Below are positions 6,199 through 35,900 of a DNA stretch of 40,327 nucleotides, one piece after another. Under the pieces are notes generated by a model. That model made no database searches and was not told the origin of the DNA. It saw nothing but the letters and a program-made list of their open reading frames with translations. Position 1 is the stretch's first letter; each line of letters begins with the position of its first letter. A program made the position numbers and the translations under genes. Source of the stretch: Candidatus Hebobacteria bacterium (GTDB lineage: Bacteria > Armatimonadota > Hebobacteria > Hebobacterales > Hebobacteraceae); assembly GCA_029821885.1 (NCBI GenBank), contig JALGXV010000024.1, positions 1-40,327 on the forward strand. The letters are read 5' to 3'.

Positions 6199-6261
6199 GG
6201 CGGCTCGGCGTGGGCGCTCACCGGAGGTTTCCGGCAATCCACTGTGGGAGGGGTATGGAAG

Positions 6262-7011
6262 ATGCGGCTTGATGATCGCGTTGCCATCGTCACTGGGGGC
6301 GCTCAGGGGCTCGGGCGCCAGGTATGCCTGAGTCTGGCCGAGGCGGGGGCGGCCGTGGTCATCAACGCCCGACCGGGAGGCACCCCCCCCGATCCGGTTG
6401 CCGAGGCGGTTAGGTCCGCAGGTGGGCGCTGTGAGGTCGTGCTTGCAGATGTCTGCGAGGCGGAGCAGGCACAGGAGTTGGTGAAGCAGGGGATATCCGC
6501 CTTCGGGCGCATCGACGTGTTGGTCAACAACGCCGCCGTGACTCGGGACGCCCTCCTGCTGGAGATGTCGGAGGAATACTGGGATCAGGTGTTCGCCGCC
6601 AACGTGCGCGGTGCGTTTAACTGCATCCAAGCTGTCGCGCCACACATGATCGAGCAGCGACGGGGGTCCGTGGTCAATATCTCGTCGGTCGTGGCGGACC
6701 TCGGGACGGTGGGTGCCTCGAACTACGCCGCGTCGAAAGGAGCCGTCAACAGCCTGACTCGCTCGGCCGCCGTGGAGATGGCGCGGTTTGGCATACGGGT
6801 CAACGCGGTGGCGCCTGGTGTCGTCGAGACCCGACTCATGGAGCGCGTGCTCGGCAAGCGGCGAAGGCAGTTGACGGGGCGCATCCCGCTGCGCCGGTTC
6901 GCGGCGCCAGAGGAGGTCGCCAACGTGGTGCTCTTCCTTGCCTCCGACCTCTCGTCCTACATCACGGGAGAAGTTGTACGTGTTGCGGGCGGAATGGGAC
7001 TTGCGCACTGA
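6262..7011 (+). CDS. fabG: SDR, 3-oxoacyl-ACP reductase (FabG-like)
   Basis: TGGAQGLGR, NNAAVTRD, S...YAASKGAV catalytic motif, PGVVETRL. Confidence 0.9.
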   Translation: MRLDDRVAIVTGGAQGLGRQVCLSLAEAGAAVVINARPGGTPPDPVAEAVRSAGGRCEVVLADVCEAEQAQELVKQGISAFGRIDVLVNNAAVTRDALLLEMSEEYWDQVFAANVRGAFNCIQAVAPHMIEQRRGSVVNISSVVADLGTVGASNYAASKGAVNSLTRSAAVEMARFGIRVNAVAPGVVETRLMERVLGKRRRQLTGRIPLRRFAAPEEVANVVLFLASDLSSYITGEVVRVAGGMGLAH

Positions 7012-7130
7012 GGGAGGAAGCGCAGCACGACTGTCGACAGAGACAGCACACTGCGCCTGGAAGCGCCGTCGAGACCGGCACCCGACGGCTGGCCCAGGTG
7101 GGTCGTGAAGTCAGTAGGGATGGCAGCCGA

Positions 7131-8384
7131 ATGAGAGCAAGGCGTGTGGTCGTCACCGGCCTGGGAGCGGTCACCCCGCTCGGCCTCACTCTGGATGAAA
7201 CCTGGCAGGCGATAGCGGCCGGGAAGAGCGGAATCGGGCCTATCACCAGCTTCGATGCATCGACCTTCCCAGTCCAGATCGGGGCCGAAGTCAAGGGGTT
7301 CTCGGTCGATCCATATGTCAGTAAGCGCGGGACGCGACGGGTGATCTCGCGCGCGGCTGGCTTCGGACTGGGCGCCGCCAAGATGGCTTGGCAGGATGCA
7401 GGGATTGACGGATCAGTGGACTACGAGAGTGTTGGCGTCATGCTTGGCGGCTGCTTGACCGCGCCATCGCTTCCCGAGTCCAGCGCCTGGCTGCGTGTCA
7501 ACGACGACGGCATAGCGCCGGAGAAGGCGTCTGAGGACCCGTTCGGTTTCCTCCGCCGGGCATCCCACACCGGGACTAGTCAGATAGCGTCGGAGATTGG
7601 AGCCCGCGGGCCCACCGCGAGCATCTACGTTGCCTGCGCATCCGGGACCCAGGCCATCGGCATGGCACTGAACGCTGTCCGGTGGGGCGAGGCGGAGGTG
7701 GTGTTGACCGGGGCCTACGACTCGATGATAAGCGAATGGTACATACTGCTGTTCGCCGCGATCAATGCTCTCTCCACGCGCAACGATGATCCCGAGCGGG
7801 CCAGTCGACCGTTCGACAGGGACCGGGACGGATTCGTGATGGGCGAGGGCGCGGCGGTGCTGGTCCTGGAGGACATGGAGCACGCCTTGCGCCGAGGCGC
7901 CCGCATCCACGCGGAAGTACTGGGCTACGGCAGCTCGCTGGACGCCTACCACATTACCGACGCCCCGCCCAATGGCGAGGGAGCGACCGCGGCCATGACG
8001 AACGCGCTGGCGGATGCCGGCCTCGGACCCACTGACATAGACTACATCAACGCACACGGGACGTCGACGAGAGACAACGACGTGTCGGAGACGCGCGCCA
8101 TCAAGAACGTGTTCGGGGATCAGGCATACGAAGTTGCCATCAGCTCCACCAAGTCGATGACCGGGCATCTGATCTCTGCGGCCGGCGCTCTCGAAGCGTG
8201 CCTCTGCGTGCGCGCGCTGCAGGACGGTCTGATGCCCCCGACGATAAACCTGGAGAAGGCAGACCCGGAGTGCGACCTCGACTATGTGCCACACAAGGCC
8301 AGGCGCGCTGACACTGCCCTCGCAATGTCGAACTCGTTCGGATTCGGCGGCAGCAACGGCACGGTCATACTGCGTCGAGGCTAG
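7131..8384 (+). CDS. fabF: beta-ketoacyl-ACP synthase II-like (KS, intact active site)
   Basis: VACASGTQAIG (Cys), NAHGTSTRDND (His), KSMTGHLISAAG (His), NSFGFGGSN. Confidence 0.93.
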   Translation: MRARRVVVTGLGAVTPLGLTLDETWQAIAAGKSGIGPITSFDASTFPVQIGAEVKGFSVDPYVSKRGTRRVISRAAGFGLGAAKMAWQDAGIDGSVDYESVGVMLGGCLTAPSLPESSAWLRVNDDGIAPEKASEDPFGFLRRASHTGTSQIASEIGARGPTASIYVACASGTQAIGMALNAVRWGEAEVVLTGAYDSMISEWYILLFAAINALSTRNDDPERASRPFDRDRDGFVMGEGAAVLVLEDMEHALRRGARIHAEVLGYGSSLDAYHITDAPPNGEGATAAMTNALADAGLGPTDIDYINAHGTSTRDNDVSETRAIKNVFGDQAYEVAISSTKSMTGHLISAAGALEACLCVRALQDGLMPPTINLEKADPECDLDYVPHKARRADTALAMSNSFGFGGSNGTVILRRG

Positions 8385-8417
8385 ACGTCTGACCAGCGCT
8401 GCCGGGGAAGTGATGGG

Positions 8418-9704
8418 ATGAAGGCAAGTAGACGAGTCGTGGTGACGGGCATAGGTCTGGTGACGCCCTTCGGATTGGGGACCGAGACATTCTGGTCCGC
8501 CTTGACGGCGGGCAAGGGGGCCGTCGGCCGCGTGGACTTGCTGAACGGCTCGGGCGACGGGGAGCAGCTCGCGGCGCGAGTCCCCGAGTTCAGGGCGCGG
8601 GATCATGTGTCGAACCGCAGGCTGCTCCGGATCATGTGCAGGACCGACCATTTCGGCCTGGTGGCCGCTCAGATGGCGATCGAAGAGGCCGGGGAGGCAG
8701 AACCGGAGCCTGGCCGCAAGGGAGCCTTCATCGGCACATCGAAGGAGATGGGCCCGATCGAGCCGTTGTTCGACGCGGCACGGCCCTCACGCGACGAAAC
8801 GGGGGAGATGACCTCCCGCGGCCTCGGGTCGGACGGATTCGGCGAGATTCCGCCGCTCACCCTCGTGGAGGGATTGCCGAACGGATGTCTGTTCGCCTCC
8901 TCTGTGATTCACTCGATCAAGGGGGCCAACACCAACTTCCTCGGCTCCGGCGAGGCCGGTCTGGTCGCCATAGGCGGCGCCTATCGTGCCGTTCAGCGAG
9001 GGGATGCTGACTGGGCCCTTGCTGGCGGCCATGACAGCGGCGTCGATCGCTGGTCCTACGCCAACTTCCACCGACTGCAGATGCTCTCCCAACGCCGCGA
9101 TGATCCAGAGAGGGCTGTGCGACCCTTCGACCGGACTCGAGACGGGTTCGCGGTGAGTGAGGGGGCCTGCATGGTGGTGCTCGAGGAACTGGAACGCGCG
9201 CGCACGCGCGGCGCGAACATCTATGCCGAGATCCTCGGCTACGGTGCCACCTGCGACGCGGCCGGGCAAGTGTCTCCCCGCGAGGACGGGGAAGCGCTGG
9301 CGGCGGCGATCACGGGGTCGCTGCGGGAGGCAGACCTGGGTCCAGGGGGTGTGGACTACGTCAATGCCTATGCCAGCGCCACTCCAGTGGGAGACCGTAC
9401 CGAACTGAGGGCGCTGGAGCTGGTCTTCGGCGGCGCCTCGCGCCGGCCACTGGTGAGCGGCATCAAGGGGGCGCTGGGACACATGCTGGCGGCCTCCGGC
9501 GCGGTGGAGTTCGCCGCGACCGCGCTCGCCCTCCATCATCAGACTGTCCCGCCAACACTGAACCTGACGGAGCCGGACGCCGACTGCCACTTCGATTGTG
9601 TGCCGGCCACGGCGCGGTCCGCTGATGCCGCCGCTGCCCTGACGGTGAGCAGGGGAATCGGGGGGCAGAATGCCTCCATGGCGCTGAGCCGGGCGGGGAA
9701 CTGA
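8418..9704 (+). CDS. KS-like protein lacking catalytic Cys and first His (chain-length-factor-like)
   Basis: KAS fold motifs RRVVVTGIGLVTPFG and RPFDRTRDGFAVSEGA; Cys motif replaced by LGSGEAGLVAIG; NAHGTST replaced by NAYASAT; GALGHMLAASG retained. Confidence 0.88.
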   Translation: MKASRRVVVTGIGLVTPFGLGTETFWSALTAGKGAVGRVDLLNGSGDGEQLAARVPEFRARDHVSNRRLLRIMCRTDHFGLVAAQMAIEEAGEAEPEPGRKGAFIGTSKEMGPIEPLFDAARPSRDETGEMTSRGLGSDGFGEIPPLTLVEGLPNGCLFASSVIHSIKGANTNFLGSGEAGLVAIGGAYRAVQRGDADWALAGGHDSGVDRWSYANFHRLQMLSQRRDDPERAVRPFDRTRDGFAVSEGACMVVLEELERARTRGANIYAEILGYGATCDAAGQVSPREDGEALAAAITGSLREADLGPGGVDYVNAYASATPVGDRTELRALELVFGGASRRPLVSGIKGALGHMLAASGAVEFAATALALHHQTVPPTLNLTEPDADCHFDCVPATARSADAAAALTVSRGIGGQNASMALSRAGN

Positions 9705-16245: not shown

Positions 16246-17781
16246 ATGCTCGGCCTCGACTCCTGTGGCCAGCCCACCGTGTCCAGCTGTGTCAGCATGC
16301 CGGCCGAGGCGCAACTCGGGACCGATGCCCCTGGCCGATCTCCGATGAGACGTGTTGCGAAGAACGTCGGCTTCCTGCTGATGACCCATGGCGTCTCCCT
16401 GGCCGCCGGGATCGTGGTGCTCGCCCTGAGTGCCCGCTACCTGGGTCCAGCGCTCTTCGGCGAACAGGCAGTGCTGCGATCCGTCGCGCACATTGCGCTG
16501 CCCCTGTTAACGGGGGGCCTCCGCGTCAACATGGCCAAGGAGATAGGACGCGACCCTGAGGGAGCTGCCTCCTACTTGGGCAGCGTTCTCACTCTGCGCT
16601 GGCTGATGGCCGCCGTAGTGGCCGCGGCCGCGGTGGCAGTGGTGCTCGCCCTCCCTCTGACGCCGGCCAGGGAGAGAGCCGCCTACGCGATGGTCTTGAT
16701 GCTGCTAGCGGGCATGTGGGGAGCGGTCGCGAGCGCCGTGTTCGTTGCCTACGAGCGAAACGAGTACAACCTGGCGATGAGCACTGCGAACGGTCTGCTG
16801 ATAGTCCCGCTGACAATGCTGGCCATCCGGCTCGACGCTGGGGTAGCAGGGATTCTGGCGGCCGCCGCAGTGGGGCCGTTTGTGACGGCCCAGATCGCCT
16901 TCAGCTTCGCCTGCCGCCGCTTCGTCCGGCCGAAGCTGGCAGTGGATCTGGTGCGGTGGCGACAGATACTGCGAGCCTCCCTCCCGTTGGGGGTCGGAGC
17001 CATGCTCAAGCGGTCATACGCCAGAGTCGATGTATTCCTCCTGGCTGCGCTGCAGAGCGCTGAGGCTGCCGGGATCTTCTCCGTCGCCTATAGGGCGGCT
17101 ATCCAGTTTACCTCAGCGTCGACCACGGTTGGGACGGCAATTCTCCCCCGTCTCTCTCTGCTTGCCAGGAGGGCAATGGAACAACTGCGGGCCGCCCTGG
17201 AGCACCTGCTGTTGATCTTCCTGGCGGTGTCGGTTCCGGCGGCAGGGATGATAGCGGCCTTCGCGGCCCCACTTCTCACCCTCGTAGTGGGAGCGGAGTT
17301 CGCCTCTTCCATCGCCGCGCTCCGCCTGATCTCCATCGCCATCGTGACTGCTGCTCCCGACGCGCTGCTCTTCTTCTGCCTAGTCGCTCTGGGCAGAGAG
17401 GCGGTCGCCGTCAGGTACCTTGCGCTCAGCGTTATCGCCAATGTGGTCCTCGACGTGCTGCTCATCCCGCTCTTGGGTGTGAGCGGGGCCTGTCTCGGGA
17501 CCATTGGCGCGGAATGGATATTCTTCAGCCTCTCTCTGGTCGCACTACACCGGGCACTCAAGCTGACCGTCGTATGGCGATCCCTGCTGAAGATAGCCGC
17601 ATCTGGAGTGGCAATGGGGCTGGTGATCTATGTGGCCGGACCGGAGAGACCGGTGATAGCGGCCGGGTTCGGACTGGCCGCCTTCCTGCTGCTGTTCGTC
17701 TTGTCTCGAGCCTTCCCGCCAGGAGGCATCAGAGCTCTGCGCCGAGCGCTGATACCTCCGCCACCCACTGTGCAACACTGA
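16246..17781 (+). CDS. polysaccharide flippase (Wzx/MATE-like); start may be 16345
   Basis: Polytopic; LSARYLGPALFGEQAVLRS, LPLGVGAMLKRSYARVDVFLLAALQSAEAAGIFSVAYR. Confidence 0.88.
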   Translation: MLGLDSCGQPTVSSCVSMPAEAQLGTDAPGRSPMRRVAKNVGFLLMTHGVSLAAGIVVLALSARYLGPALFGEQAVLRSVAHIALPLLTGGLRVNMAKEIGRDPEGAASYLGSVLTLRWLMAAVVAAAAVAVVLALPLTPARERAAYAMVLMLLAGMWGAVASAVFVAYERNEYNLAMSTANGLLIVPLTMLAIRLDAGVAGILAAAAVGPFVTAQIAFSFACRRFVRPKLAVDLVRWRQILRASLPLGVGAMLKRSYARVDVFLLAALQSAEAAGIFSVAYRAAIQFTSASTTVGTAILPRLSLLARRAMEQLRAALEHLLLIFLAVSVPAAGMIAAFAAPLLTLVVGAEFASSIAALRLISIAIVTAAPDALLFFCLVALGREAVAVRYLALSVIANVVLDVLLIPLLGVSGACLGTIGAEWIFFSLSLVALHRALKLTVVWRSLLKIAASGVAMGLVIYVAGPERPVIAAGFGLAAFLLLFVLSRAFPPGGIRALRRALIPPPPTVQH

Positions 17782-17848
17782 TCCCGGTCGTGCCGATCGG
17801 CCCATGTCCGAGGATTCCCTGGTTTCCGTGTCGAACAACTACTGGGGA

Positions 17849-17865
17849 CGTAACCGAAGGTTACG
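17849..17865. promoter_or_regulatory. perfect 7-bp inverted repeat in the wzx-femAB intergenic region
   Basis: CGTAACC-GAA-GGTTACG. Confidence 0.4.
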
Positions 17866-17990
17866 GTTTGCTCCCGCGCCGGTCGCGTGCCTTGCATCGA
17901 GGTATGGTGCCAGTGTGTCTGACGCTGCCATAGGTGCGGGGAATCGGCTCAACCAGTCATCCGGGGGGTCTTGGCGGAACGGAGTGGGCA

Positions 17991-19145
17991 ATGCAGCTGC
18001 GCGTGCGCGAGGTGACGACTCGGCGGGAGCTGTCTAGCCTCGAGCCCCAGTGGGACGAAGTGGTAAGGCGGTCCGGCGATGGTTCCCTGTTCGTCAGCTT
18101 CGACTGGATCACTACCTGGTGGGACCACTTCGACGGCGGGCGTGAGCTGCTCGTGCTGGTGGCGGAGGACGACGAGGGCATCGCCGGTATCGCGCCCTTC
18201 GCGATCGGCCGGTATCGGTACCTGAAGATCTCGCTGCGAGTGCTGGAGTTCATAGGAGCGCCCTTCCGCGGACGTTCGCTATCTACCCGCCTCAATCTCA
18301 TCGTGAGTCGGCGGCACGAGCAGTGCCTGGCCGGTTTCGCCGAGGCAATGGCAGGTAACGCCAACCGTTGGGATCTTTGCAGCCTCCGTGGCGTGCCGGC
18401 CACAAGCGTACACCTGGAACGGCTGAGCAGTCTCCAGGGATACCCCCTGACTCTCCTCAGCGCCGGCGTCAACCAGGTGGCCTTCATACCGGTTCTGGGC
18501 CGGGAGTGGTCGAAGTACCTGGAGTCGCGCAGCCGAAGCTTCCGCTACTGGCTCCGACGCATTCAGCAGCGTGCGGAGAAGGCCGGTATGGGTCCTGTTG
18601 AGCGCGTAGAGAGCCTACGGGGTCTGGAGGCGGTGCTGCCGCATCTGTCGCGGGTCTGTGAGGCAAGCTGGAAGGCCGCTCAGGACAAGGGAATGTTCTT
18701 CAGCCGCGATGCAACGGCGGAGTTCCTGGCCGCCTTCCTGCGGCGCGTGTGCGCGAACGGTGGACTTCTTCTCACCACCCTCTCCTCGCACCAGCAGATC
18801 ATCGCCTATCATCTCGCCCTCTTCCACTCGGGGACGCTGTGGTTCTACGATACTGCCTACGATACGGAATATGGCCGCGCGGCGCCTGGCTTCAACCTCT
18901 TCGCGCACATGATCCAGGAGGGCTTCCGTGCCCGCGTGGACCGCATCGACCTCGGCCCGGGACTGCAGCCCTACAAGATGCGTTGGGCTGATGACCGCGA
19001 AGAGAGGGTCCATTGGCTGGGATTCCACCGGAGGCGGCGCTCGCGGCTGCTGCAGTTCGGAGCACGCTGGGCCGTGCGCCTGCGGCAACTCAAGGCAAGG
19101 CGTGGCGAGCACCCCTCCAGCTCCTCGGAGGGTGCATCGCGGTGA
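17991..19145 (+). CDS. FemAB/CelD-like (BcsL-type) acyltransferase
   Basis: W..VVRRSGDGSLFVSFDWITTWWDHFDGG, FRYWLRRIQQRAEKAG, FYDTAYDTEYGRAAPGFNLFAHMI. Confidence 0.85.
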   Translation: MQLRVREVTTRRELSSLEPQWDEVVRRSGDGSLFVSFDWITTWWDHFDGGRELLVLVAEDDEGIAGIAPFAIGRYRYLKISLRVLEFIGAPFRGRSLSTRLNLIVSRRHEQCLAGFAEAMAGNANRWDLCSLRGVPATSVHLERLSSLQGYPLTLLSAGVNQVAFIPVLGREWSKYLESRSRSFRYWLRRIQQRAEKAGMGPVERVESLRGLEAVLPHLSRVCEASWKAAQDKGMFFSRDATAEFLAAFLRRVCANGGLLLTTLSSHQQIIAYHLALFHSGTLWFYDTAYDTEYGRAAPGFNLFAHMIQEGFRARVDRIDLGPGLQPYKMRWADDREERVHWLGFHRRRRSRLLQFGARWAVRLRQLKARRGEHPSSSSEGASR

Positions 19146-20446
19146 CTGGCCCTCCACCTTCGATGCCATCCGACATGAGCTGGCCGCCCGCAGTCATCCT
19201 CGGGCTCGACTCCTCCGCCCTCGAAGTGTGTCGATGTCTGGGCCGTCGCGGCGTCCCTGTCGTCGGTCTCGACACGCGAACCAGCATCGCTGCCTCTTCC
19301 CGCTACTGCCGTCCCCAACTGTGCGCCGACCCGCGGATAAAGGGCGCTCAGTTGCGCACCGAGTTGACGGCGCTGGCCGGAGAGCTGGGCAGCCGGCCGG
19401 TTCTGATGCCCCTGGCCGACGACTGGGTGGTCTTCATGGCGGATCACCGGGCCGGTCTGGAGACCTACTACCGTTTCGTGCAGCCGTCTTCGGGGCTGCT
19501 GTCGGAGCTCACAGACAAAGGCACAACCTACGAACTCGCGGATCGCCACGGCCTGGATGTTCCAAGGCATGTGGTAATCGAAGATGGGTCGGACCTGGCA
19601 CGCGTGGCCACAGAGGTGGGCTACCCCTGTGCGCTCAAGCCAGCGCGCTCCCCGGACTGGCGCCAGCCTGAGGCGCTCGCCGCCCTGTCCGGAGAGAAGC
19701 TCCTGTACGCCAACGATGCAGTCGAGCTACGCGCTGCCTACGAGCGCGCGTCACCGTTCTCCCAGCGTCACCTTGTGCAGGAGTGGCTTCCCGGTCCGGA
19801 CAGCGATCACTACTACGTGGTCTCGTACATTGATCGCGACGGCGTTCTGCGCGGCCAGTTCACCCACCAGAAGCTCCTGATGCGCCCCCCGGGCCGAGGG
19901 GTCGGCTGCCTCATCGTGAGCGTGCATCAGGAGGGCCTCGCCGCGCGTGCCTCTCATTTCCTCCTCAGCATAGCGTACCGAGGCCTGGTGGGCATGGAGT
20001 TCAAGCACGACCGTAGGGACGGTCGGCTCAAGCTCCTCGACCTCAACCCTCGATGGGGCCAGGGAGACTCACTAGCTGCGATCGCCGGGATCGACATGGC
20101 CTGGCTCTACTACTGCGACTGTCTGGGCCTTTCGCCGACGGTTCCCGACCATTACCGGTCGGGCCTGAGATGGGTCCACTTGCGCGCTCATCTGGCGGCA
20201 ACCTGGCGGGCGCACCGCGAGCGACGCGGCAGCATCTGGCGGAACCTACTCGAGCTCCGCGGGCGGCTGCACCACTCAGTGCTCGCGCTCGACGATCTGT
20301 CCCCGGCTGGATGGATGCTGCACGATATGCTGGGGGCACGACTGGGATCAGTTGCAGGCCGTCGGCATCAGCGTCAGGCATCCTCTCGTAAGCGGCGGTT
20401 CCATCAGCAGGCTGAAGATGTTCGCACCAAGGGGCGCCTCCCATGA
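19142..20446 (+). CDS. ATP-grasp ligase
   Basis: ILGLDSSALEVCRCLGRRGVPVVGLD, YPCALKPARS, LVQEWLPGPDSDHYYV, GMEFKHDRRDGRLKLLDLNPRWGQ; GTG 19142 overlaps the upstream stop. Confidence 0.85.
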   Translation: MTGPPPSMPSDMSWPPAVILGLDSSALEVCRCLGRRGVPVVGLDTRTSIAASSRYCRPQLCADPRIKGAQLRTELTALAGELGSRPVLMPLADDWVVFMADHRAGLETYYRFVQPSSGLLSELTDKGTTYELADRHGLDVPRHVVIEDGSDLARVATEVGYPCALKPARSPDWRQPEALAALSGEKLLYANDAVELRAAYERASPFSQRHLVQEWLPGPDSDHYYVVSYIDRDGVLRGQFTHQKLLMRPPGRGVGCLIVSVHQEGLAARASHFLLSIAYRGLVGMEFKHDRRDGRLKLLDLNPRWGQGDSLAAIAGIDMAWLYYCDCLGLSPTVPDHYRSGLRWVHLRAHLAATWRAHRERRGSIWRNLLELRGRLHHSVLALDDLSPAGWMLHDMLGARLGSVAGRRHQRQASSRKRRFHQQAEDVRTKGRLP

Positions 20447-21282
20447 GAGCTGTGCTCAAGCGATGGCTGCTTAGGGTCCTCGTGCGGCCCGGAGTAGACG
20501 GGCGACGCTCCTGCCTGCCTGCCCTCGCCTACCACTCCATCGATGAGTCGGGCTCACCGGTGTCCTTCCCGCTCTCGCACTTCCGCGCCCAGATAGAGTG
20601 GCTGGCATCCCACGGGTACCAAGCTCTGACGGCCCGGGAAGCTGGCGCCGCTTTGGCCGGACGGGCACGGATTGGGGAACGTGCCGTCGTCCTCACCTTC
20701 GACGATGGGCTCCGCTCGGTGAGTGAGACAGCGCTCCCTGTCCTCGCCGAGTTCGGCTTCGCGGCAACCGTGTTCTGCGCGGCCGGATATGTCGGCAAGG
20801 TCTGTGGGTGGGACCGCGCTCCCGGAATTCCCGAGATGGACATGATGTCGTGGGAGGACATCCGGCTCCTCGCCGATCAGGGATGGGAGATCGGGGGGCA
20901 CAGCGTCTCACACGCGCACCTGCCAGCGCTGGCGGAAGCAGCCAGACGGGAGGAGATCGCTGAGAGTCGGCGCATTCTACAGGACAGAACGGGCTGTTCC
21001 GTGACCAGCTTCGCCTATCCATTCGGAGAGTTCGATCAAGTGTCCGCCGATGCTGTGGCAGAGGCCGGGTTCAGCTCGGCCTGGACTATGGACCCGATCG
21101 GCAACCTTCCGGGGTGCGACCTGTTCTCGCTGGGCAGGTTCAACTGCGACCGCATCCAGAGCGATAGCCCAGATGCAGCCGAGCTCGCCATCCGGACGTA
21201 TCTCTCGGGCCGATATGGCTGGTATGCCCTGCTAACTGCGCGCCGCCTCCGGATCCGTCGGCGTGCGAGAAGGAAGCAATAA
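20443..21282 (+). CDS. polysaccharide deacetylase (NodB-type)
   Basis: VVLTFDDGLRSV, GGHSVSHAHL, SFAYPFGEF; ATGA overlap with upstream gene. Confidence 0.93.
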   Translation: MRAVLKRWLLRVLVRPGVDGRRSCLPALAYHSIDESGSPVSFPLSHFRAQIEWLASHGYQALTAREAGAALAGRARIGERAVVLTFDDGLRSVSETALPVLAEFGFAATVFCAAGYVGKVCGWDRAPGIPEMDMMSWEDIRLLADQGWEIGGHSVSHAHLPALAEAARREEIAESRRILQDRTGCSVTSFAYPFGEFDQVSADAVAEAGFSSAWTMDPIGNLPGCDLFSLGRFNCDRIQSDSPDAAELAIRTYLSGRYGWYALLTARRLRIRRRARRKQ

Positions 21283-22770
21283 GTGGCAGTCGGGTACTGG
21301 CCCAGGCGACATTCCGGCATCGTTCGGCGCGCAGGTCTGTGGGCCGTGCTCGCCGTTGCGATGCTGCTCTACGGCCTTGTCTTCGCCTGGTCGCCGCCCG
21401 TGGCGATCGGTCTGTGGCTGGCTGCCGTCCTAGCCTGGCATGCTGCCCGCCGTCTGGAGTGGACGGCACTGGGCATCTTCCTGATCGTGCCGCTCGGCCG
21501 CCTGACCTGGCTGAACGAGACGGGGACTCTCGACCTCACAAAGCTCTTCGTCGGCGCTCTGGCTATCGCCTGGGTGGCACGCGCCCTGCTGCGCAAGGAT
21601 CGCGACCTGGTCGCAGTGTGGACGGAGAGCCCAGTTACAGTTCTTATCCTGCTGTTCCTGCTGGTCAACTTCCTCTCCCTGTTGAACGCCTACGATCTTC
21701 CGCGCAGCGCGCTCAGCCTGATCCGCCTCTCGGCCTTGTTCGGGATGTACATACTGATACTGGCGTTGGTGCAGAGAAGGCGACAGGTGGAGGTGGCCGT
21801 CGGGTTCCTGGTGTTAACGGGCCTCGTGGTGTGTCTGCTTGGAGTGTGGGAGTCGCGGACGCACGAGTACCTCTGGCACATCTTGGGACAGGACCGTAGT
21901 CTGCCGCCGGGGCTGGCAAGCTCGGAGGGCGGCGGCCCCTTCGCGCTGAGGATCATCACGGTCTTCATCGACTACAACTTCATGGGCGGATACATGGCCG
22001 TCCTGTTCGGCATCGTAGGTGGGTGTGCGCTGGCGATACGTCGCTGGTACGTGTGGCTGGCGCTCGGGCCCCTGGCGGGTCTCATCATCTACAACGTGAT
22101 ACACACGGGCTCGCGGGGGGGCGTCATGGGCCTATCGGTGACGATGCTCGTGCTGCTGCTGCTGTCGCGCATCCGGATTCGCTGGTTCGTGCTGGCGCTC
22201 ATCGTGATCGGCGCTATCGCCGTCTTCCCCGTTGCGGATCAGTTCATCCCGCAGTTCCGCGGTGGCATTTCGCTGGAGGACCTGAAGCAGGACCAGCGCT
22301 GGGGATACTGGCAGATGGCCTTCCGGATGATGCAGGATCACCCCATCATTGGGGTCGGCACGGACAACTTCCCTTCACTGTACTCCTGGTACCGGGTCTC
22401 ACCGGCCCTCATGTCGCCCTACTACTGCCACAACATCTACGTCCAGATGTGGGCGGAGGGCGGGATCTTTGGTCTGATCTCTCTGCTCACGCTCGTGATC
22501 GCGGTGGGAGTGTCGTACGTGAAGGCGCTGCGCGGGGCAGGCGACGAGCAGTGGCGAGGGATCGTCGCGGGTCTTCTCGCCGCCTTTCTGGGGTATGCCG
22601 TCTTCTCCAGTACCTGCAATACTCTTCACGACCAGCCCTTCTGGATGTTAATGGCATTGTCAGTGGTCGTGCTCCGCGTCACGCGGGACGAGGGAACGCG
22701 CGCAGCTCTTCACAGCACTGCGGGCCCCGCCTCGCCGGAAGAGGAACAGCCGCTCCACGCGGCAGCATAG
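21283..22770 (+). CDS. O-antigen ligase/polymerase-like (Wzy) membrane protein
   Basis: Multiple hydrophobic segments; NVIHTGSRGGVMGL, MMQDHPIIGVGTDNF, CHNIYVQMWAEGGIFGLI. Confidence 0.9.
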   Translation: MAVGYWPRRHSGIVRRAGLWAVLAVAMLLYGLVFAWSPPVAIGLWLAAVLAWHAARRLEWTALGIFLIVPLGRLTWLNETGTLDLTKLFVGALAIAWVARALLRKDRDLVAVWTESPVTVLILLFLLVNFLSLLNAYDLPRSALSLIRLSALFGMYILILALVQRRRQVEVAVGFLVLTGLVVCLLGVWESRTHEYLWHILGQDRSLPPGLASSEGGGPFALRIITVFIDYNFMGGYMAVLFGIVGGCALAIRRWYVWLALGPLAGLIIYNVIHTGSRGGVMGLSVTMLVLLLLSRIRIRWFVLALIVIGAIAVFPVADQFIPQFRGGISLEDLKQDQRWGYWQMAFRMMQDHPIIGVGTDNFPSLYSWYRVSPALMSPYYCHNIYVQMWAEGGIFGLISLLTLVIAVGVSYVKALRGAGDEQWRGIVAGLLAAFLGYAVFSSTCNTLHDQPFWMLMALSVVVLRVTRDEGTRAALHSTAGPASPEEEQPLHAAA

Positions 22771-23089
22771 GAGAACGTGCCGCCCGGCAGTCGGAGTCGG
22801 GACCGAACCACCGAGGCGAGAGAGCGACGTGCAGGTCTTCGACAGCATGCAAGTCACCTTCCATCGATGGACCTGGAGGGCACCCGCTGATGGACGATAG
22901 ATGGCGGCCGTCGCGGCGAACCTGCTCGACGCCGCGCATCGTCTCGCTATGGTGGCCCTGTCGGCGCGTGGCCGGACTCGATCTTCTTCCCTGCCCGCCA
23001 GCGGGCAGTCCGCGGGGCCGAGGAGTCGAAGCAGAGGCGAACATACGGCAGACCAACGTCCTGGGCAACGCTGGTCAGAAGGAGTTGGG

Positions 23090-24466
23090 ATGAGAGCCTG
23101 GAGGTCACTTATCGTCGTTGGGGCACTGGCCGCAGTTGCCACCGCAAGCTGCAAGCGCACCGGCCCTCGTGTGTGGACCGGACCCGAGGACACGGGTGTT
23201 GCCCAGGCTGCAGGCCAGATGAACTATCGGTTCGGCGTGGTCGGCCGCACCAACGTCCCGGGGTCAACCAGACTGCTTGGCGATCTGGGAGTGGGCTGGA
23301 TCCGGGTGCCAGTGACCTGGAGCCAAGTACAGCCGCGCCCGAGCTCGCACAACTGGGACAAGGTCGCGGAGGCTGTGGCATCTCAGGCTCGCACCAGGCC
23401 CGGGATGCGAGCGATGGTGACTCTGGAGGCGAAGAGCCCCTGGGCCGGCCGTCAGATGGCTGTCGAGGTGCGGGAGAAGGCCACCGTGCCCCCTCGCGAC
23501 CTAGACGCCTATTACCAGTTCGTCCACGGGATCGCGAGCCGCGGTCGAGGCGTCGTCGACTGCTGGCAAATCGAGAACGAGATGGAGAGTCGCCACTGGT
23601 GGGCGGGCACTTCTGGGGACTACCTCGCGCTGCTGCGGACCGCGCACCGGGCTGTTCGGTCCGCCGATCCTGGCGCAAAGATCGCCGTCGGCGGCTTCAC
23701 GAGCCAGACAATGACGGCTGGGGCCCTCCTCGACGCCGGAGAAAGCAAGGGCGAGATAGCGCGGCAGCTAGGTTTCGGTGAGATCCGCGGCCGTGACACA
23801 TCAGAGGTGGAGGCCGGACTGCGCCGCAGTCTGGCCTTCGTAGACGACGTGTTCGCGAACGGGAGGGACTACTTCGACATCGTGGACATCCACCTCTACC
23901 ACAGCTACGAGACCATACCTCTTCGCGTCGAGTGGCTGCGCGGCAAGATGAGAGAGAACGGGTGCGAGAAGCCCATCTGGGCGACGGAGGTCGGTGGACC
24001 GGACCCCCTGGTCGTCTCGCACAACGAACAGGTGCAGGCCCAAGAGGTGGTGAAGCGAGTCGCGCTTGCCTTGGCCAGTGGTGTCGAGCGGGTGTTCTGG
24101 CTCGGCCTGACCGAGATGGATGACCAGGGAGAGCGGTTCAACAGGATGGGCCTAGTCACCATCGGCGGGCGTCGGAAGCCCGCATTCCGTGCCTACCAGC
24201 TAGTTGTCCGGAAGCTGGACGATGTCGAGTATGGCGAATCCCCAAATGTCCCTGCAGGCCACGGCCTGCAATTCCAGAGGCAGGGGCAGCCGTTGTGGGT
24301 GCTGTGGGCCGATCACGGGGCACGACTCCGCCTGGAGACAGGTCGTCCCAGCGTCCTCATCACCTACCTCAATGGACGCGAGGAGCGGCGCTCGACCGTT
24401 GGCGGGTCATTGATGCTTGACTTGACGGCCGATCCCATCTTCGTCGAGGCAGACTCCGAGCAATAG
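23090..24466 (+). CDS. secreted or lipoprotein GH-A-clan-like glycoside hydrolase
   Basis: Signal-like N-terminus ending TASC; WIRVPVTWSQVQP, VDCWQIENEM (acid/base), PIWATEVGGPD (nucleophile candidate). Confidence 0.75.
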   Translation: MRAWRSLIVVGALAAVATASCKRTGPRVWTGPEDTGVAQAAGQMNYRFGVVGRTNVPGSTRLLGDLGVGWIRVPVTWSQVQPRPSSHNWDKVAEAVASQARTRPGMRAMVTLEAKSPWAGRQMAVEVREKATVPPRDLDAYYQFVHGIASRGRGVVDCWQIENEMESRHWWAGTSGDYLALLRTAHRAVRSADPGAKIAVGGFTSQTMTAGALLDAGESKGEIARQLGFGEIRGRDTSEVEAGLRRSLAFVDDVFANGRDYFDIVDIHLYHSYETIPLRVEWLRGKMRENGCEKPIWATEVGGPDPLVVSHNEQVQAQEVVKRVALALASGVERVFWLGLTEMDDQGERFNRMGLVTIGGRRKPAFRAYQLVVRKLDDVEYGESPNVPAGHGLQFQRQGQPLWVLWADHGARLRLETGRPSVLITYLNGREERRSTVGGSLMLDLTADPIFVEADSEQ

Positions 24467-24525
24467 TCGTTCGGCCGAGGGGGAAGCCGCCAGACGCAGC
24501 ACACGGGGGGGCAGTTGGGGTCTGC

Positions 24526-26685
24526 TCAGTCGAACCTAACGTCGTTGAGCACGACGCCCAGAATCGTATCACCGTCCGGGCCGGCGAGCAGGTCCCGCGC
24601 GTTCTGAGCTGCTGTCCGATCAGTCTGGTCCGCACGCACTGCCATCAACACCTTGTCCGACGTCCTCGCCAGGGCCTGTACCTCAGGACTGTCTTCGATC
24701 GGGGGCGCGTCCATGAGAACGACCGCCGCGCGGGCTCGCATGCTCTCGACTGCGCTGCCCATGGCATCGGAAGTCAGGAGCATGCAGGCGTTCTGAGCGT
24801 CCTTGCCCGCCGCCAGCAGCACGATGTTGCCCGTGTCAGTGCCCTGAACGGCGCTCTGGAGGTCCGACCTCCCGAGCAGGATGTCACTGAGCCCCGGAGA
24901 CACGCTTGCCCCGAACAGCTCGTGCAGCCTGGGGGACCGCAGGTTGGCGTCCACGGTGAGAATGGTCTCGTCCGGCAGTGCGTCGGCCAGCGCTTCCGCG
25001 AGGCCAGCGACGACAGACGTCGTGCCCTCGCCCCTGCGGGCGCTCGCCACCAGGAGCACCTTCGGGAAGCTCCCGTCACCTCTCACCCACACCTCGTCGC
25101 GAAGCCGCGCGAACGCGTCATGGCCCTTCGCATAGGAGACAAGGACCGGCAGCGCAAGCCGATCGGCCACCTCCTCCGGCGTGCCAAGGGTATCGTCGAA
25201 GTACTCCACTACGAAGGCCCCCGTCAGGCCGATCAAAACGGCGAGCACCGGCCCTAGGATCAACACCACCAGATAGGGCGGCGAAGCGATATCCCAAACA
25301 CCCTTGGGAAGTCTGGGCGGGTCGATCACGCTGATGGCAACGGGCGGTCCGCCCATCTGACTTGCCAGGCGCAACTCGTCGGCCCGCTCGACTAGCTGCA
25401 TGTGGCTCTTCGATGCTGCCCGCTGCTCTCGCGTCAACTCCTGCAGCCGCCGCTCCTTAGCTGGCAAGCGGGCCAGCTGAGCGCGCGAGTCGGCCAGGAG
25501 TCTGACAATGGCCTCTCTGCGGGCCTGCATTCCCATGCGGTCGCCCTCCAGCGAGACGAGCAGCTGCGCCAATGTCTCGTACTCCGGCGACAGTCCTCTT
25601 GTCTCGGCGACAGCAACGCGCTCGACTTCGCGCGCCAGACGCTGCTGAGCAGCATCAATCTGCGATTTGAGCCGGACGACCTCGGGATGCTCCTCCGTGT
25701 GCGTCGACAACAGAGCAGCCAGTTGCTGCTCCCTCTGGTAGAGGTCGCTCTCTATCTGTCGGACCTCGGGGCTCTCTGTCAACACCTCTGTCAGTGTGAC
25801 GGGCTCTCCGTGGCTGGCGAGCGACTGGTGCACAGTAGCCAGGCGCGCCTCGGTCTCCTCCAGTGCGGCCTTCGCCTGCAGGTGCTGCATTTCGAGATTG
25901 CCGAGTTGCTCCATCTGGCGCTGTTGCTCATCCGTGAGGGTGACAATGCCCTCTTCCCGCTTGAACTCCGACAGCGCTCGTTCGGTCTCCTCCAAGCGAG
26001 ACGCGGTTGCCGGAAGTGCTGCCGCAACCGCCTCGTAGGCGCTCGCGGCATCGGCTCGCGTCATAGTGGTCGCCCGCATGACCAGGATGTCAGCCATCTG
26101 CTGGCATATGGACTGCGCGAGCTGGCGATCAGGATGCAGCGCTGTTATCAGGATCAGCTCCGTGTCCTGGTCGATCTCCGCCGAGACGAGAGTCCGGAGA
26201 TCGTCAACCGTCTCGCGGAATCTGTCCTCTGGGGCTTCCTGAACGCCCCCGGCCATGGTACGGGTGACAAGCGAGAGGATGCTGGAGACTGCCCCGGTCA
26301 CTGCGCGCTTCATGCGGTCGCGAAGCGCGTTCGGCGGCGGAAGCGTATCCAACTCGAGGTCCTGTACCACTCGTTCCGCGGTCGTGCGGCTCAGCAAGGT
26401 CTCGACGTAGCTGTTCATGACAGCGAGAGGGCTTACGGTGCCCAGCCGAGACGACCTGACACTATCCTGGCTCAGGGGGTCAACAGGCGCCTGTTCCATG
26501 CGGACATACAGGCTGGCGGAGGCCCTGTACTTGGGCGTCACCATCAGCGTGGAAAGGACGATCGCAGCCAGCACGACGATCGCCGTTCTCGTCGCCAATC
26601 TACGCCGCTTGGCAAGGGTACGCAGGGCGCGGCGCAGATGATCTCTCGGGCTCAGTTCCCGATCTTGGTCAGGTCCAGTAGCCAT
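24526..26685 (-). CDS. Wzc-like chain-length determinant/co-polymerase with degenerate BY-kinase domain
   Basis: Wzz N-terminal TM and coiled-coil; C-terminal P-loop-like LLVASARRGEGTTSVVAGLA, VDANLRSP, VLMDAPP. Confidence 0.9.
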   Translation of the reverse strand: MATGPDQDRELSPRDHLRRALRTLAKRRRLATRTAIVVLAAIVLSTLMVTPKYRASASLYVRMEQAPVDPLSQDSVRSSRLGTVSPLAVMNSYVETLLSRTTAERVVQDLELDTLPPPNALRDRMKRAVTGAVSSILSLVTRTMAGGVQEAPEDRFRETVDDLRTLVSAEIDQDTELILITALHPDRQLAQSICQQMADILVMRATTMTRADAASAYEAVAAALPATASRLEETERALSEFKREEGIVTLTDEQQRQMEQLGNLEMQHLQAKAALEETEARLATVHQSLASHGEPVTLTEVLTESPEVRQIESDLYQREQQLAALLSTHTEEHPEVVRLKSQIDAAQQRLAREVERVAVAETRGLSPEYETLAQLLVSLEGDRMGMQARREAIVRLLADSRAQLARLPAKERRLQELTREQRAASKSHMQLVERADELRLASQMGGPPVAISVIDPPRLPKGVWDIASPPYLVVLILGPVLAVLIGLTGAFVVEYFDDTLGTPEEVADRLALPVLVSYAKGHDAFARLRDEVWVRGDGSFPKVLLVASARRGEGTTSVVAGLAEALADALPDETILTVDANLRSPRLHELFGASVSPGLSDILLGRSDLQSAVQGTDTGNIVLLAAGKDAQNACMLLTSDAMGSAVESMRARAAVVLMDAPPIEDSPEVQALARTSDKVLMAVRADQTDRTAAQNARDLLAGPDGDTILGVVLNDVRFD

Positions 26686-26809
26686 GTTCCTGCTTCGGGG
26701 TGCGCAGCTTGCCCACAGTGCGCTAGATTCACAGACCGTCTCAGCCTTCGTCAATCGAACGTCGAGCGGCAGATGCCCATTCGGTTGGCAGGCGCCTCAG
26801 GGAGTCGTG

Positions 26810-27844
26810 CTACCTCCAGATGAAGATCCCCACAGCGGCTCGCAGGACGTCACTCCACTCGAGAGTGCCGGCCAGGAAACGCTCCGGCACTGTCACGGTA
26901 TCGCCCGGCGCGAGCACTGGGTTCAGCTCGGGATCATCTGGCTGCCCCACGGCGGCCCCCAGGTCGACATGGAGGACGGCACTGGTGCCGTCCCGGGCCG
27001 TGTGCTTCACCGCGGTCTTCCCGAGTTCGGCTCGATTCGTCGGACCCCCGGCCAGCCCCACATAGTCACTGAGTCGCAGACCGTGGTGGTAGTCGGTGGC
27101 GCCAGGCCTGTTAACCGCGCCCAGCACAGCGACCGGAAGTGCCCGGCCCACCCAGACGGTGTCACCCGGCTTCAGTATCGGATTCGGCACACTCTGACCT
27201 TCCGAAGACACTGCGCTCATGTCCATGGTTGTCTTCAGTGTCACGCCGTTCTCGTGTGAGACGATGCCGATCCCCGAGAGATCCGCGTCCGAGGCGAAGC
27301 CGCCAGCTAGACCGATGTAGTCAAGCAGTCGCCGTCCAGTCGAGTATTCAACCGGGCCGGGATTTCTGACATTGCCATGAACATACACGCTTGGCCACAC
27401 AACGGGCGTGACGAGGACCGACACCCGCGGGTCCCTGTAGTAACGCAGGTACCCCTTTCGCACCTCTTCGGTCAGCTCGGCCACGGTCTTGCCGGCCGCC
27501 CCCAACTCGCCCAGGAGTGGGAAGGGAACCTGCCCATGGGTCATCACAATGGTATCGGTGGCAAGGCTGGGCTCGCCCCAGACCGACATATGGAGCCTGT
27601 CGCCTGGCTGGATGCGGTACTCGCCAAAGATCAGCCTGGGCCCGTCGACATCTGCCGGTACCGCAGGTGTGGTGGCTGCCGGTGCGGCTGGCGCGGGGAA
27701 CGACTGGGGAGGTGGAACCGGTCGCTCAGCGGCGACAGGCGCTTGCTCTTCAGCGCATGCGGCACCCGCGGCGAACGCGAGCGGCAGCATGCAGCAGACC
27801 ACTCCCTGCAGAATCGAAGTGAAGCGCTTCTTGGGGCCGCCCAT
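26810..27844 (-). CDS. Wza-like polysaccharide export protein with SLBB domains
   Basis: YRIQPGDRLHMSVWGEPSL, YYRDPRVSVLV, VYVHGNVRNPGPVEY, VAVLGAVNRPGATDY. Confidence 0.93.
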   Translation of the reverse strand: MGGPKKRFTSILQGVVCCMLPLAFAAGAACAEEQAPVAAERPVPPPQSFPAPAAPAATTPAVPADVDGPRLIFGEYRIQPGDRLHMSVWGEPSLATDTIVMTHGQVPFPLLGELGAAGKTVAELTEEVRKGYLRYYRDPRVSVLVTPVVWPSVYVHGNVRNPGPVEYSTGRRLLDYIGLAGGFASDADLSGIGIVSHENGVTLKTTMDMSAVSSEGQSVPNPILKPGDTVWVGRALPVAVLGAVNRPGATDYHHGLRLSDYVGLAGGPTNRAELGKTAVKHTARDGTSAVLHVDLGAAVGQPDDPELNPVLAPGDTVTVPERFLAGTLEWSDVLRAAVGIFIWR

Positions 27845-28062
27845 AATCGCACTCTCCGGACTTGGCTCGGACCGCGTGGCCCGGGCTTCTCGCGAGCTCG
27901 AGCATCATGGGGAGGACCGCGGCTGCACTGCGTGTTCCCGGCGCAAGACTGCTCGGAATGCCCTTATCGAACGGGTAGTTCGACATCCTTGCCGGGAAGA
28001 CCTTCACGAGACCGACGGGGCTCCGAGGCCAGATGCCGGCGCCATACGACCGCACGCATGGC

Positions 28063-29733
28063 CTAAAGGTATCCCAGACCCCTGAGCCGCTCTTCCACCT
28101 GGCGCGTCTCCTCCTCCGAGTACGGGCTTTCCTCGCGGCGGTCCGGTCCCGGCCTCTCCCTGTCTGGAGGAGGCCGTTCGTCGTCCTCCCCGTCCCTGAC
28201 CGGCACGCATCCGGTGGCCTGCGTGAGCAGGGGATGCAGGACGCGCCCATCCATGTGGCCGGGAACGGGCACATGGAAGAGCTTGAGGATGGTGGGAGCG
28301 ACGTCGATGATCTCGGCTTCCGGCAGTCGCTTGCCCCGCTGGATGTTGGGGCCGCAGGCGATCAGGATGCCGTCGAAGCGGTGCATACCTGTCCCTGTTC
28401 TCCAAGTGGCTCTCTCGAAGAGGGGTCCCTCCAGCCGCAGGTCCGCGGTGCACGCTCCGTCCTCCAGGACGTAGACAATGTCTGGAGCATCCTCCAGGTG
28501 CGAGCCGTCGAAGATCTCCTCGCGCCGGCAGGCCATAGTGAGCAAGGGTCGCCCACTCTCCGGATGTCGCAGCCGCCGCAGACCTGCCAGAATGCTGTCC
28601 CGCACCTTCTCATACTCCTCGCCTGGCGCCACGATGCCGTTCGGCTCTCGCCCTCGGAGGTTCACGTAGATGCCCATCTCCGTTGTGGATGCGGCGTAGG
28701 CGCGTGTCCTGGACCAGTTGATCCAACGCCAGAACGGCGTCGCTCCAGATATCTTCCCACGTGCCAGCAGACGCGCCACGCGATGCCGTAAGCGCAGGAC
28801 ATCTGCGGAAGCAACCAACCGGCCGACCCTGCCGCGGCGTCGCGAAGGTGTGAGCAAGCCCTCCTGCGCCAGCCACTTGTTCACCCTGAACTTGCGCAGC
28901 AGCGGACCGAAGCCGTGATCGGACACGAAGAAGACGTCGGTCTCCGCCGGGCGGGCGCCCACGATGTCGCCGATACACTCGTCAAGCAGCGACATGAAGC
29001 TCTCTGCTCTCTCCTTGTACCGCTCCAGTTCGGCCGTCCGCGGGTAGAGCTTGAACTGACCGGACAGCACATCCCACAGCACATGCTGAAGTCGATCGGT
29101 TCCCACAAAGACCACCATCGAGAAATCCCACTCGCGGGTCTTGAGCAAGTGGACGGTGTACCTGGTGCGCTGCCGCGTGCACTTCTCCAGCGCGTCGAGG
29201 AAGGGCGCTATCGCCTGGCGTCCTTTGAGATGGTTGGGCGGCGCATCGATAATGTACTCGCCAAGTTGGGGCCGCAGCTCCTCATAGAGGGATGGAGGGT
29301 TCGTGAACTGCACGTCAGTGCTGGGCGTGAGCATGTCCGAGATACCGAACGAAGTGCGGTCTGACAGAGGATAGGTGACGGGCACGTTGATCAGCGCGGT
29401 AGCCAGATCGGCGTCGTCGAGCAGGTCCCACATCGTGGGGACCTGCACGTCTCTCGAGCTGACTATGCGGCGGGCGGGGCGGTCAGGCTGACGCTTCGCG
29501 AAGTCGAATACCCCGTGCTTTCCAGGCCTGACGCCAGTGGCAAAGGACGTCCACGCCGGAGCGGTGACCGGCGGCATGACCGAGCGCAGCACAGCTCGCG
29601 AGCCTTCACCGGTCAACCGTCGAAGGTTAGGCATCAGCCCGCGCTCCATCCAACCATCGAGGAGCGCGAAGGTGGCCCCATCGAGGCCGATAACGAGGAC
29701 GCGCGCCTGCGTGGCCGCCTCGGCTTCAGACAT
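28063..29733 (-). CDS. alkaline-phosphatase-superfamily / type I phosphodiesterase-like protein (paralog of 11679..13394)
   Basis: VIGLDGATFALLDGWMERG, PPVTAPAWTSFATGVRPGKHGVFDF, VSDHGFGPL, C-terminal RLRGLGYL. Confidence 0.88.
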   Translation of the reverse strand: MSEAEAATQARVLVIGLDGATFALLDGWMERGLMPNLRRLTGEGSRAVLRSVMPPVTAPAWTSFATGVRPGKHGVFDFAKRQPDRPARRIVSSRDVQVPTMWDLLDDADLATALINVPVTYPLSDRTSFGISDMLTPSTDVQFTNPPSLYEELRPQLGEYIIDAPPNHLKGRQAIAPFLDALEKCTRQRTRYTVHLLKTREWDFSMVVFVGTDRLQHVLWDVLSGQFKLYPRTAELERYKERAESFMSLLDECIGDIVGARPAETDVFFVSDHGFGPLLRKFRVNKWLAQEGLLTPSRRRGRVGRLVASADVLRLRHRVARLLARGKISGATPFWRWINWSRTRAYAASTTEMGIYVNLRGREPNGIVAPGEEYEKVRDSILAGLRRLRHPESGRPLLTMACRREEIFDGSHLEDAPDIVYVLEDGACTADLRLEGPLFERATWRTGTGMHRFDGILIACGPNIQRGKRLPEAEIIDVAPTILKLFHVPVPGHMDGRVLHPLLTQATGCVPVRDGEDDERPPPDRERPGPDRREESPYSEEETRQVEERLRGLGYL

Positions 29734-32104: not shown

Positions 32105-32368
32105 CAGGCATCCCGCCCCACATCCACCGTCGTGTGGTTCCCCAGGTCGCCACCAGCTGGGCAGGCTTTCCTGCCGCTTCGTCGGCTTGCTGTCATCCGT
32201 GCCTCCTACGTTTCCCCGTAGCACACGTACATCGGACTGACTCGCTTCCGAGTTGGGTGTGCGACAACAGGACCGCGGTTTCTCGGGATGTCAATCACAA
32301 GGAAGCAGTTGTGCACCGGCGAAACGCGAGCCAGAGAGCGGAGACTGATCTCGTCTGGAGGGGATGCC

Positions 32369-33646: not shown

Positions 33647-33662
33647 GAGGAGCGGAGGGCGG

Positions 33663-34436
33663 ATGATCGATTTGCAGCAGCGCCGGGCGATGGTCATGGG
33701 AGTTGCGAACGACAGGAGCATAGCGTGGGGCATCGCTGAGAGCCTATCCAGAGCAGGGGCCGAAATCGCCCTGTCCTACCTCCCCGACGAACGAGGGCGC
33801 GCCCAGCGGCGAGCGGAGAAACTGGCCGAGTCAATCGGCTCGAAGCTGGTCATCGGATGTGATGTCACGGAGGACGAACAGGTCGAGTCCATGTTCGGCC
33901 AGATCCGCAAGCAGTGGGAGTCTCTCGACATCCTGGTCCATTCCATCGCCTGGGCCCACGTCGAGGACCTGCGCGGGGGAATCAGCAAGACGCCACGAGA
34001 TCACTTCGCCGCGGCCAACGACGCAAGCGTGTACTCGTTCATTGCTGTCTGCCGCCATGCCAGCCGCCTCATGGAGGGGCGGTCGGGGAGCATGGTAACC
34101 GTGACCTACCTCGGGTCACAGCGCGCGATGCCGAGCTACAACATCATGGGGGTGGCCAAGGCAGGACTCGAGTCGGCAGTGCGGTACTTGGCGGCGGAGC
34201 TGGGTCCGGCGGGGATCCGGGTGAACGCGGTCTCGCCGGGGCCGGTCGAGACTCTCGCCTCGGCCGCCTTCCCGGACTTCGACAGGATGCTCAGGGCCTC
34301 AGCCGAGCGTACTCCGCTGCGGCGAAACGTCACTACCGATGAGGTGGGAGACGTCGTCGCGTTTCTCTGCAGCGACCTGGCGCGGGGCATCACAGGACAA
34401 GTCGTGTACGTGGACGCTGGCTACAACATCACCTAG
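33663..34436 (+). CDS. fabI: enoyl-ACP reductase (FabI-like)
   Basis: GVANDRSIAWGIA, HSIAWA, TYLGSQRAMPSYNIMGVAKAGLE (Y-x6-K), ITGQVVYVDAGYNI. Confidence 0.9.
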   Translation: MIDLQQRRAMVMGVANDRSIAWGIAESLSRAGAEIALSYLPDERGRAQRRAEKLAESIGSKLVIGCDVTEDEQVESMFGQIRKQWESLDILVHSIAWAHVEDLRGGISKTPRDHFAAANDASVYSFIAVCRHASRLMEGRSGSMVTVTYLGSQRAMPSYNIMGVAKAGLESAVRYLAAELGPAGIRVNAVSPGPVETLASAAFPDFDRMLRASAERTPLRRNVTTDEVGDVVAFLCSDLARGITGQVVYVDAGYNIT

Positions 34437-34493
34437 GCTGTCTAGGGCCGCGCAGCCCAATCAGGCGGTCCCGCACTGCCGGCGCCAGACAGC

Positions 34494-35817: not shown

Positions 35818-35900
35818 CCGGCCGACCTCCTCCTACTCGATGGGCAGGCCGGCAACGCAACCTGCCATCTGCGGGGCACGACACACTCCAGAGAAAGGGA

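Follow-up and report, generated by a model that had tools for sequence, protein, structure and literature searches.

Genes at the locus

The window, that is, the whole stretch of DNA analysed here, is a 40,327-nt contig (C418, in its entirety) of the 444-contig genome of a Candidatus Hebobacteria bacterium (G000). It carries two adjacent ketosynthase-fold genes, KSa and KSb, together with the other genes of a putative, near-complete type II fatty acid synthase cassette and a polysaccharide locus (Table 1). The cassette is split in the window into FabG-KSa-KSb (6244-9704) and subtilase-FabI-DH-AcpS-ACP (32288-36227), where DH is the fused dehydratase, with the polysaccharide locus between the two halves. 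In G002, a single-contig genome that belongs to the same family but to a different genus, it is one contiguous cluster in the order subtilase-FabI-DH-AcpS-ACP-KSb-KSa-FabG. KSb lies directly 3′ of KSa in both genomes, with a gap of 33 bp in the window and an overlap of 4 bp in G002. An integrase-core transposase gene (38556-39758, minus strand) is located near one contig end and a XerC/D-like recombinase gene (1253-2215, plus strand) near the other; these might be connected with the separation of the two cassette halves by the polysaccharide locus.

Table 1. Features of the window, with the basis for each assignment.
Feature	Position	Strand	Basis
FabG-type ketoreductase	6244..7011	+	S-Y-K intact; 68% identical to G002
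KSa, intact FabF-type ketosynthase (Cys-His-Lys-His-Phe)	7098..8384	+	TIGR03150 497.6 bits vs cut-off 493.75; sites
KSb, ketosynthase fold, predicted catalytically dead CLF-type partner; 428 aa	8418..9704	+	Pfam domains, site alignment, trees, AlphaFold model
Gly178 codon, catalytic Cys position of KSb	8949..8951	+	alignments
Tyr318 codon, first catalytic His position of KSb	9369..9371	+	alignment
Lys350-His355 of KSb (Lys and second His retained)	9465..9482	+	alignment
Ile414 codon, gating Phe position of KSb (SRGIGG)	9657..9659	+	alignment
Polysaccharide locus between the cassette halves	16246..29733	.	Wzx-like flippase, GNAT/FemAB-like, ATP-grasp, polysaccharide deacetylase, Wzy_C, Wzz/tyrosine kinase, SLBB export protein, phosphodiesterase
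Subtilase adjoining FabI, here and in G002	32288..33646	+	linked
FabI-type enoyl-ACP reductase	33663..34436	+	FabI models are top matches; Y-x6-K and YLGSQRA motif
Fused double-hotdog (FabZ-like) dehydratase	34494..35426	-	domain matches; N half resembles Streptomyces DHa, C half DHb
AcpS-type phosphopantetheinyl transferase, dedicated	35407..35817	-	domain/profile matches
Acyl carrier protein, dedicated, with C-terminal extension	35901..36227	-	PF00550; alignment
Polyprenyl glycosylphosphotransferase adjoining the ACP gene	36285..37058	-	domain/profile matches

KSb has lost key active-site residues

KSb is a single complete ORF with a ribosome-binding-like sequence, GGGGAAG, directly 5′ of its ATG. 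The protein matches both ketosynthase Pfam domains (PF00109, 1e-25; PF02801, 7e-31), and it scores 338.7 bits against the FabF model TIGR03150, below the cut-off of 493.75, with the Cys and the first His gone. Membership in the FabF (KAS II) family was rejected on that cut-off and on the missing Cys-His-His set. Alignment to FabF and KSa places FabF Cys163, His303, Lys335, His340 and Phe400 opposite Gly178, Tyr318, Lys350, His355 and Ile414 of KSb: YVACASG is replaced by LGSGEAG, NAHGTST by NAYASAT, STKSMTGH by GIKGALGH, which retains Lys350 and the second His, His355, and SFGFGG by SRGIGG. The other ketosynthases compared read CHKHF at these five sites, with a few CHKHI or CHKHM, and the exceptions are partner subunits of other pairs.

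The original prediction had described KSb as lacking the Cys (replaced by Gly) and the first His (replaced by Tyr) while keeping the second His in GALGH, and the alignment bears out all three statements; the loss of the Phe gate had been missed, and the retained Lys is likewise an addition to it. Around the Cys position it had placed LGSGEAGLVAIG (12 letters) opposite an 11-letter partner, one letter too many. The right counterpart is GSGEAGLVAIG, and the reading of Cys to Gly is unaffected. The prediction had also stated that a Cys elsewhere in the nucleophile elbow would refute it, which is not the case. In the AlphaFold model of KSb, a ketosynthase fold with a pLDDT of 88 and a pTM of 0.91 in which the segment from about 110 to 150 is poorly predicted, Gly178 sits at the elbow between strand 171-175 and helix 180-193, with no Cys there. 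A Foldseek search of the PDB returned FabF structures first (TM about 0.9), a comparison that does not discriminate between CLF and FabF. A fused KSa-KSb fold, with the TAG read as Gln, reached a pTM of 0.51 from homologous alignment rows that all lay on the KSa half and none over KSb.

A sequencing or assembly artefact, or a gene in decay, is unlikely on comparison with the KSb ortholog of G002 (L034:15106-16392; 65% identity), because that protein has the same Gly, Tyr, Lys, His and Ile at the five sites and the pairwise NG86 estimates between the two (dN 0.29, dS 1.34) give a dN/dS of about 0.22, close to the values for the rest of the cassette.

Two enzymatic roles for KSb were weighed against these residues. 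KSQ-type decarboxylases have Gln in place of the Cys and retain both His residues. Both His have been described as indispensable for malonyl decarboxylation (PMC2649909). That KSb acts as a stand-alone malonyl-ACP decarboxylase of this type, priming with acetyl-ACP, would be in keeping with a cassette that has no FabH and with the retention of Lys and the second His, but KSb carries Gly and Tyr where such an enzyme has Gln and the first of its two His; since the first His is lost and the Gln is absent, we consider this role very improbable. That KSb uses the ketosynthase fold for a different reaction, such as transferring an acyl group to a sugar or carrier lipid, is improbable. Pocket residues that are conserved and specific to KSb (G-Y-K-H-I; PPLTLV-GLPNG), with the second His again retained, could be taken as signs of it. 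Against this stand the grouping of KSb with partner subunits, its position directly after KSa and the lack of an obvious nucleophile, given that the nearest kin have Tyr or Thr in place of Ser177, the residue beside the elbow.

Phylogeny of the KSa-KSb pair

Evidence for a CLF-type affinity of KSb came from a tree of 47 ketosynthase sequences, assembled without Iga12, PfaC, FabF2XL and the anammox sequences. KSb grouped with KS2 of Streptomyces plasmids (support 96/88), and KSb and KS2 together grouped with aromatic CLFs to the exclusion of FabF (98/96). KSa grouped with KS1 of the same Streptomyces clusters (99/95), so that its topology mirrors that of KSb. The tree was rerun under a C20 mixture model with the active-site columns and long branches removed, and the supports were then 98/90 for KSb with KS2, 91/84 for these with the aromatic CLFs and 99/98 for KSa with KS1. 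The CLF-like affinity proposed in the original prediction is therefore recovered with the active-site columns in or out.

An AU test rejected trees in which KSa and KSb were forced together as a local duplication (p-AU 0.000273); placing KSb with the aromatic CLFs alone was not rejected (p 0.148), which makes the branching order inside the CLF-type clade tentative. Because the two trees mirror each other and local duplication is rejected, KSa and KSb are an old couple that was inherited jointly. The neighbouring paralogous ketosynthase genes and the active-site losses of KSb might also suggest that KSb arose by recent duplication of KSa or is a functionless, decaying paralogue. This is extremely improbable in view of the same AU test, the full-length ORF, a dN/dS between genera like that of the neighbouring genes and the retention of the same substitutions.

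The residue at the Cys position varies among the relatives of KSb. The Streptomyces KS2 proteins read ADKHI or AHKHL at the five sites, with Ala at the Cys site and Lys and the second His kept, and the aromatic CLFs read QDKRR, with no second His. Other adjacent ketosynthase pairs occur in the same phylum (L091:1534-3959, L092:1896-4420 and L093:1644-4094, from genomes G014, G028 and G022), and their partners read ASKEA, ASKEP and MSKEK. These second members, with no Cys and with Glu at the second His, resemble the pattern of anammox Kuste3606 (PMC2649909). Gly is best read as a further variant at a position that tolerates change, since the nearest kin have Ala, the aromatic CLFs Gln and the partners from the phylum Ala or Met. 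The original prediction had called Gly atypical; this holds in so far as classical aromatic CLFs have Gln, but Gly is less odd than was implied, given the Ala of the kin and the Val, Phe, Ser, Asp and Glu published at this site for FabF paralogues of FASII clusters (PMC2649909).

The searches yielded two KSb orthologs in all, those of the window genome and G002, and coverage outside the host phylum consisted of one GTDB scan with a single query sequence, and of plasmids. A DNA pattern of the NAYASAT type gave 12 matches in 291 genomes of the phylum, among which KSb was present only in the window and in G002. The match to Thiomargarita in the GTDB scan was an ordinary intact FabB-like ketosynthase, unrelated to the pair. 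Viral contigs scanned with the KSb profile gave no match, and the 47 loci from a FabF-type scan of viral contigs served only as alignment rows.

A putative fully reducing fatty acid cassette

The ketosynthase, ketoreductase, dehydratase, enoyl reductase and ACP of the cassette each have an intact catalytic motif (C-H-K-H in KSa; one His and one Glu in the dehydratase), and the ACP retains its Ser in SSLDVVD. The dehydratase is known from three members (34494-35426, minus strand; L034:11966-13042; L085:3-818), and in all three the C half keeps the His of HFP with the Glu replaced by Gln, and the N half keeps the Glu. FabA and FabZ active sites combine a His and an acidic residue from two subunits, and because of this each fusion is expected to hold one live composite site, apparently an asymmetric pair like KSa and KSb. 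Pfam searches of window ORFs recognised neither FabH nor FabD among those checked. The original prediction's frame of aryl polyene and aromatic PKS systems fits poorly, because the cassette, with its FabI-type enoyl reductase, resembles a fully reducing fatty acid synthase.

FabI is found in only three of the eight genomes of the family (the window genome, G002 and a third, G006), and a full-length dehydratase in the same three alone among the 291 genomes of the phylum; judged by this distribution, the cassette is accessory. KSb orthologs are seen in the first two of these; G006 is 74% complete, and its matching contig stops inside the dehydratase gene. The subtilase next to FabI has an inhibitor-like N part and is 71% identical to that of G002 over 276 aa.

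Comparison with known systems

Among the sequences compared, the best matches of all parts except FabI were in type II PKS-like cassettes of Streptomyces plasmids (NBC_01003, NBC_01260, NBC_00727 and NBC_00335), organized as ACP-AcpS-KS1-KS2 and ACP-KR-DHa-KS1-DHb-KS2. KSa and KS1, and KSb and KS2, are sister pairs, and DHa and DHb correspond to the halves of the fused dehydratase. Identities are 43% for the ketoreductase, 44-47% for KSa, 36-40% for KSb, 38% for AcpS and about 36-40% for the ACP. The Streptomyces cassettes differ in having Ala rather than Gly in KS2, separate dehydratases and no FabI in the stretches read, and in the presence nearby of an additional KS3, a KAS III-like protein and FabD. 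KS3 (L087:10326-12692; L090:8012-10375) has a weak second KS-like half after the first ketosynthase, and the Streptomyces clusters may hold both split and fused KS-CLF.

The CLFs of aromatic type II PKSs (actinorhodin; PDB 1tqy, chain B) share with KSb a Cys-less ketosynthase fold, a gene position after KSa and a gate motif that reads [AS]RG instead of SFG. They have Gln, Asp, Arg and Arg at the Cys, first His, second His and gate positions, whereas KSb has Gly, Tyr, His and Ile, and the classical aromatic systems, unlike the cassette, have neither dehydratase nor enoyl reductase. With Gly178 in place of Gln, KSb was rejected as a classical aromatic CLF. The highly reducing type II PKS for ishigamide (Iga11-Iga12) and the aryl polyene pair ApeO-ApeC likewise combine an iterative KS-CLF with a ketoreductase, a dehydratase and an ACP, but they are described without an enoyl reductase, their products are polyenes and ApeC is a half-size CLF (PMC10698177, PMC8358021).

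The nearest functional parallel is the rhizobial very-long-chain fatty acid set acpXL-fabZXL-fabF2XL-fabF1XL-adh2XL-lpxXL, where a private ACP, a dehydratase and two adjacent ketosynthases feed a surface glycolipid (PMC11901934). Mutants in fabF2XL lose the very-long chain (PMC11901934). That set differs in having no FabI and no double-hotdog fusion. In the genome search, KSb scored 46.9 bits, against 320, for NF005084, which from its length is probably the FabF2XL model; this weak match places KSb outside that model. Anammox bacteria and planctomycetes also have FabF paralogues that lack the Cys (Kuste3606, Kuste2805, Kuste3348 and R. baltica), and several of these lie in FASII clusters; by description, their Cys site is occupied by Val, Phe, Ser, Asp or Glu, and the anammox proteins have Glu or Asn at the second His (PMC2649909).

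A proposed role for KSb

Taken together, we favor a model that casts KSb as a catalytically dead subunit of the CLF type, one that pairs with the adjacent KSa to fix chain length in a fully reducing cassette, with a probability of about 0.68. KSa and KSb would most likely form an obligate heterodimer, in which KSa would provide the Cys-His-His site and, by analogy with KS-CLF pairs, KSb would close and shape both the acyl tunnel and the face where the ACP docks, fixing the chain length. Heterodimers and control of chain length by KS-CLF are established (PMC7949117, PMC8358021). From the gene set, AcpS would activate the ACP, FabG would reduce the keto group, the double hotdog would dehydrate and FabI would reduce the enoyl group, so that the dedicated ACP would be expected to end up carrying a saturated acyl chain. 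Priming and malonyl loading would probably be supplied by the housekeeping fatty acid synthase, since the cassette has no FabH or FabD. Observations that speak against this model are that KSb keeps the second His and Lys where aromatic CLFs have Q-D-K-R-R, with no second His, and that the G002 cassette lies outside this polysaccharide locus.

If the model is correct, CLF-type control would extend from polyketides to an apparently fully reducing fatty acid synthase. The Cys position in such subunits may be Gly, Ala or Gln, while the Lys, and sometimes the second His, persist. The compact cassette would also be one in which the ketosynthase and the dehydratase have each turned into an asymmetric pair with one live site.

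The polysaccharide surroundings and a possible fate of the chain

The cassette lies around a Wzx/Wzy-type locus for a capsule or exopolysaccharide, and this position suggests that the acyl chain may be attached to the polysaccharide, to the lipid that carries it or to a glycolipid. This is the weakest step of the model and a guess, since no acyltransferase for the chain was identified. G006 has the gene order of the window, namely DH, FabI, SLH protein, phosphodiesterase, SLBB and Wzz, and the Wzz/kinase protein occurs in the window genome and G006 only, among eight family genomes. It is absent from G002, where a Wzy_C gene and a glycosyltransferase gene lie at some distance from the cassette. 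Of the three genomes, two thus show the cassette linked to this polysaccharide locus. A search of the open-access literature returned no fatty acid synthase cassette associated with an exopolysaccharide locus, and the association of a private fatty acid synthase with such a locus is a testable link.

The fuller proposal is tentative, a possibility more than an expectation: in this uncultured family, a dedicated, fully reducing type II fatty acid synthase, with a dead ketosynthase of the Gly type and a dehydratase that is fused and asymmetric, would make a saturated chain of defined length, and this chain would lipidate or anchor a Wzx/Wzy polysaccharide. Rather unlikely is a chain left partly reduced (polyene) or hydroxylated, a specialized metabolite like those of highly reducing type II PKSs, with the cassette lying beside the polysaccharide genes by coincidence; KSb would still be CLF-type in that case. 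The nearest relatives are consistent with such a product, being clusters on Streptomyces plasmids that also carry SARP regulators, oxygenases and genes for sugar transfer, as is the separation of the G002 cassette from this polysaccharide locus. However, FabI has an intact motif in all three genomes and is absent from those Streptomyces cassettes in the stretches read, and G006 keeps the order DH-FabI-SLH-phosphodiesterase-SLBB-Wzz.

Several further observations concern the genes around the cassette. The GNAT/FemAB-like gene (17934-19145, plus strand) is close to the polysaccharide deacetylase gene (20443-21282, plus strand), and by analogy with NodB/NodA the two may be a deacetylate-then-acylate pair able to use the acyl-ACP of the cassette. 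The protein encoded at 30005-32104 (plus strand) has three SLH domains, with 34 matches in its own genome, mostly via the SLH part, and 58 in the congener G001, numbers that point to a large S-layer-bound proteome. Three genes for phosphodiesterases or metalloenzymes of the alkaline phosphatase superfamily lie on the contig (2472-3905, plus strand; 11679-13394 and 28063-29733, minus strand), and the G006 homolog of the last also shares 32% identity with the second.
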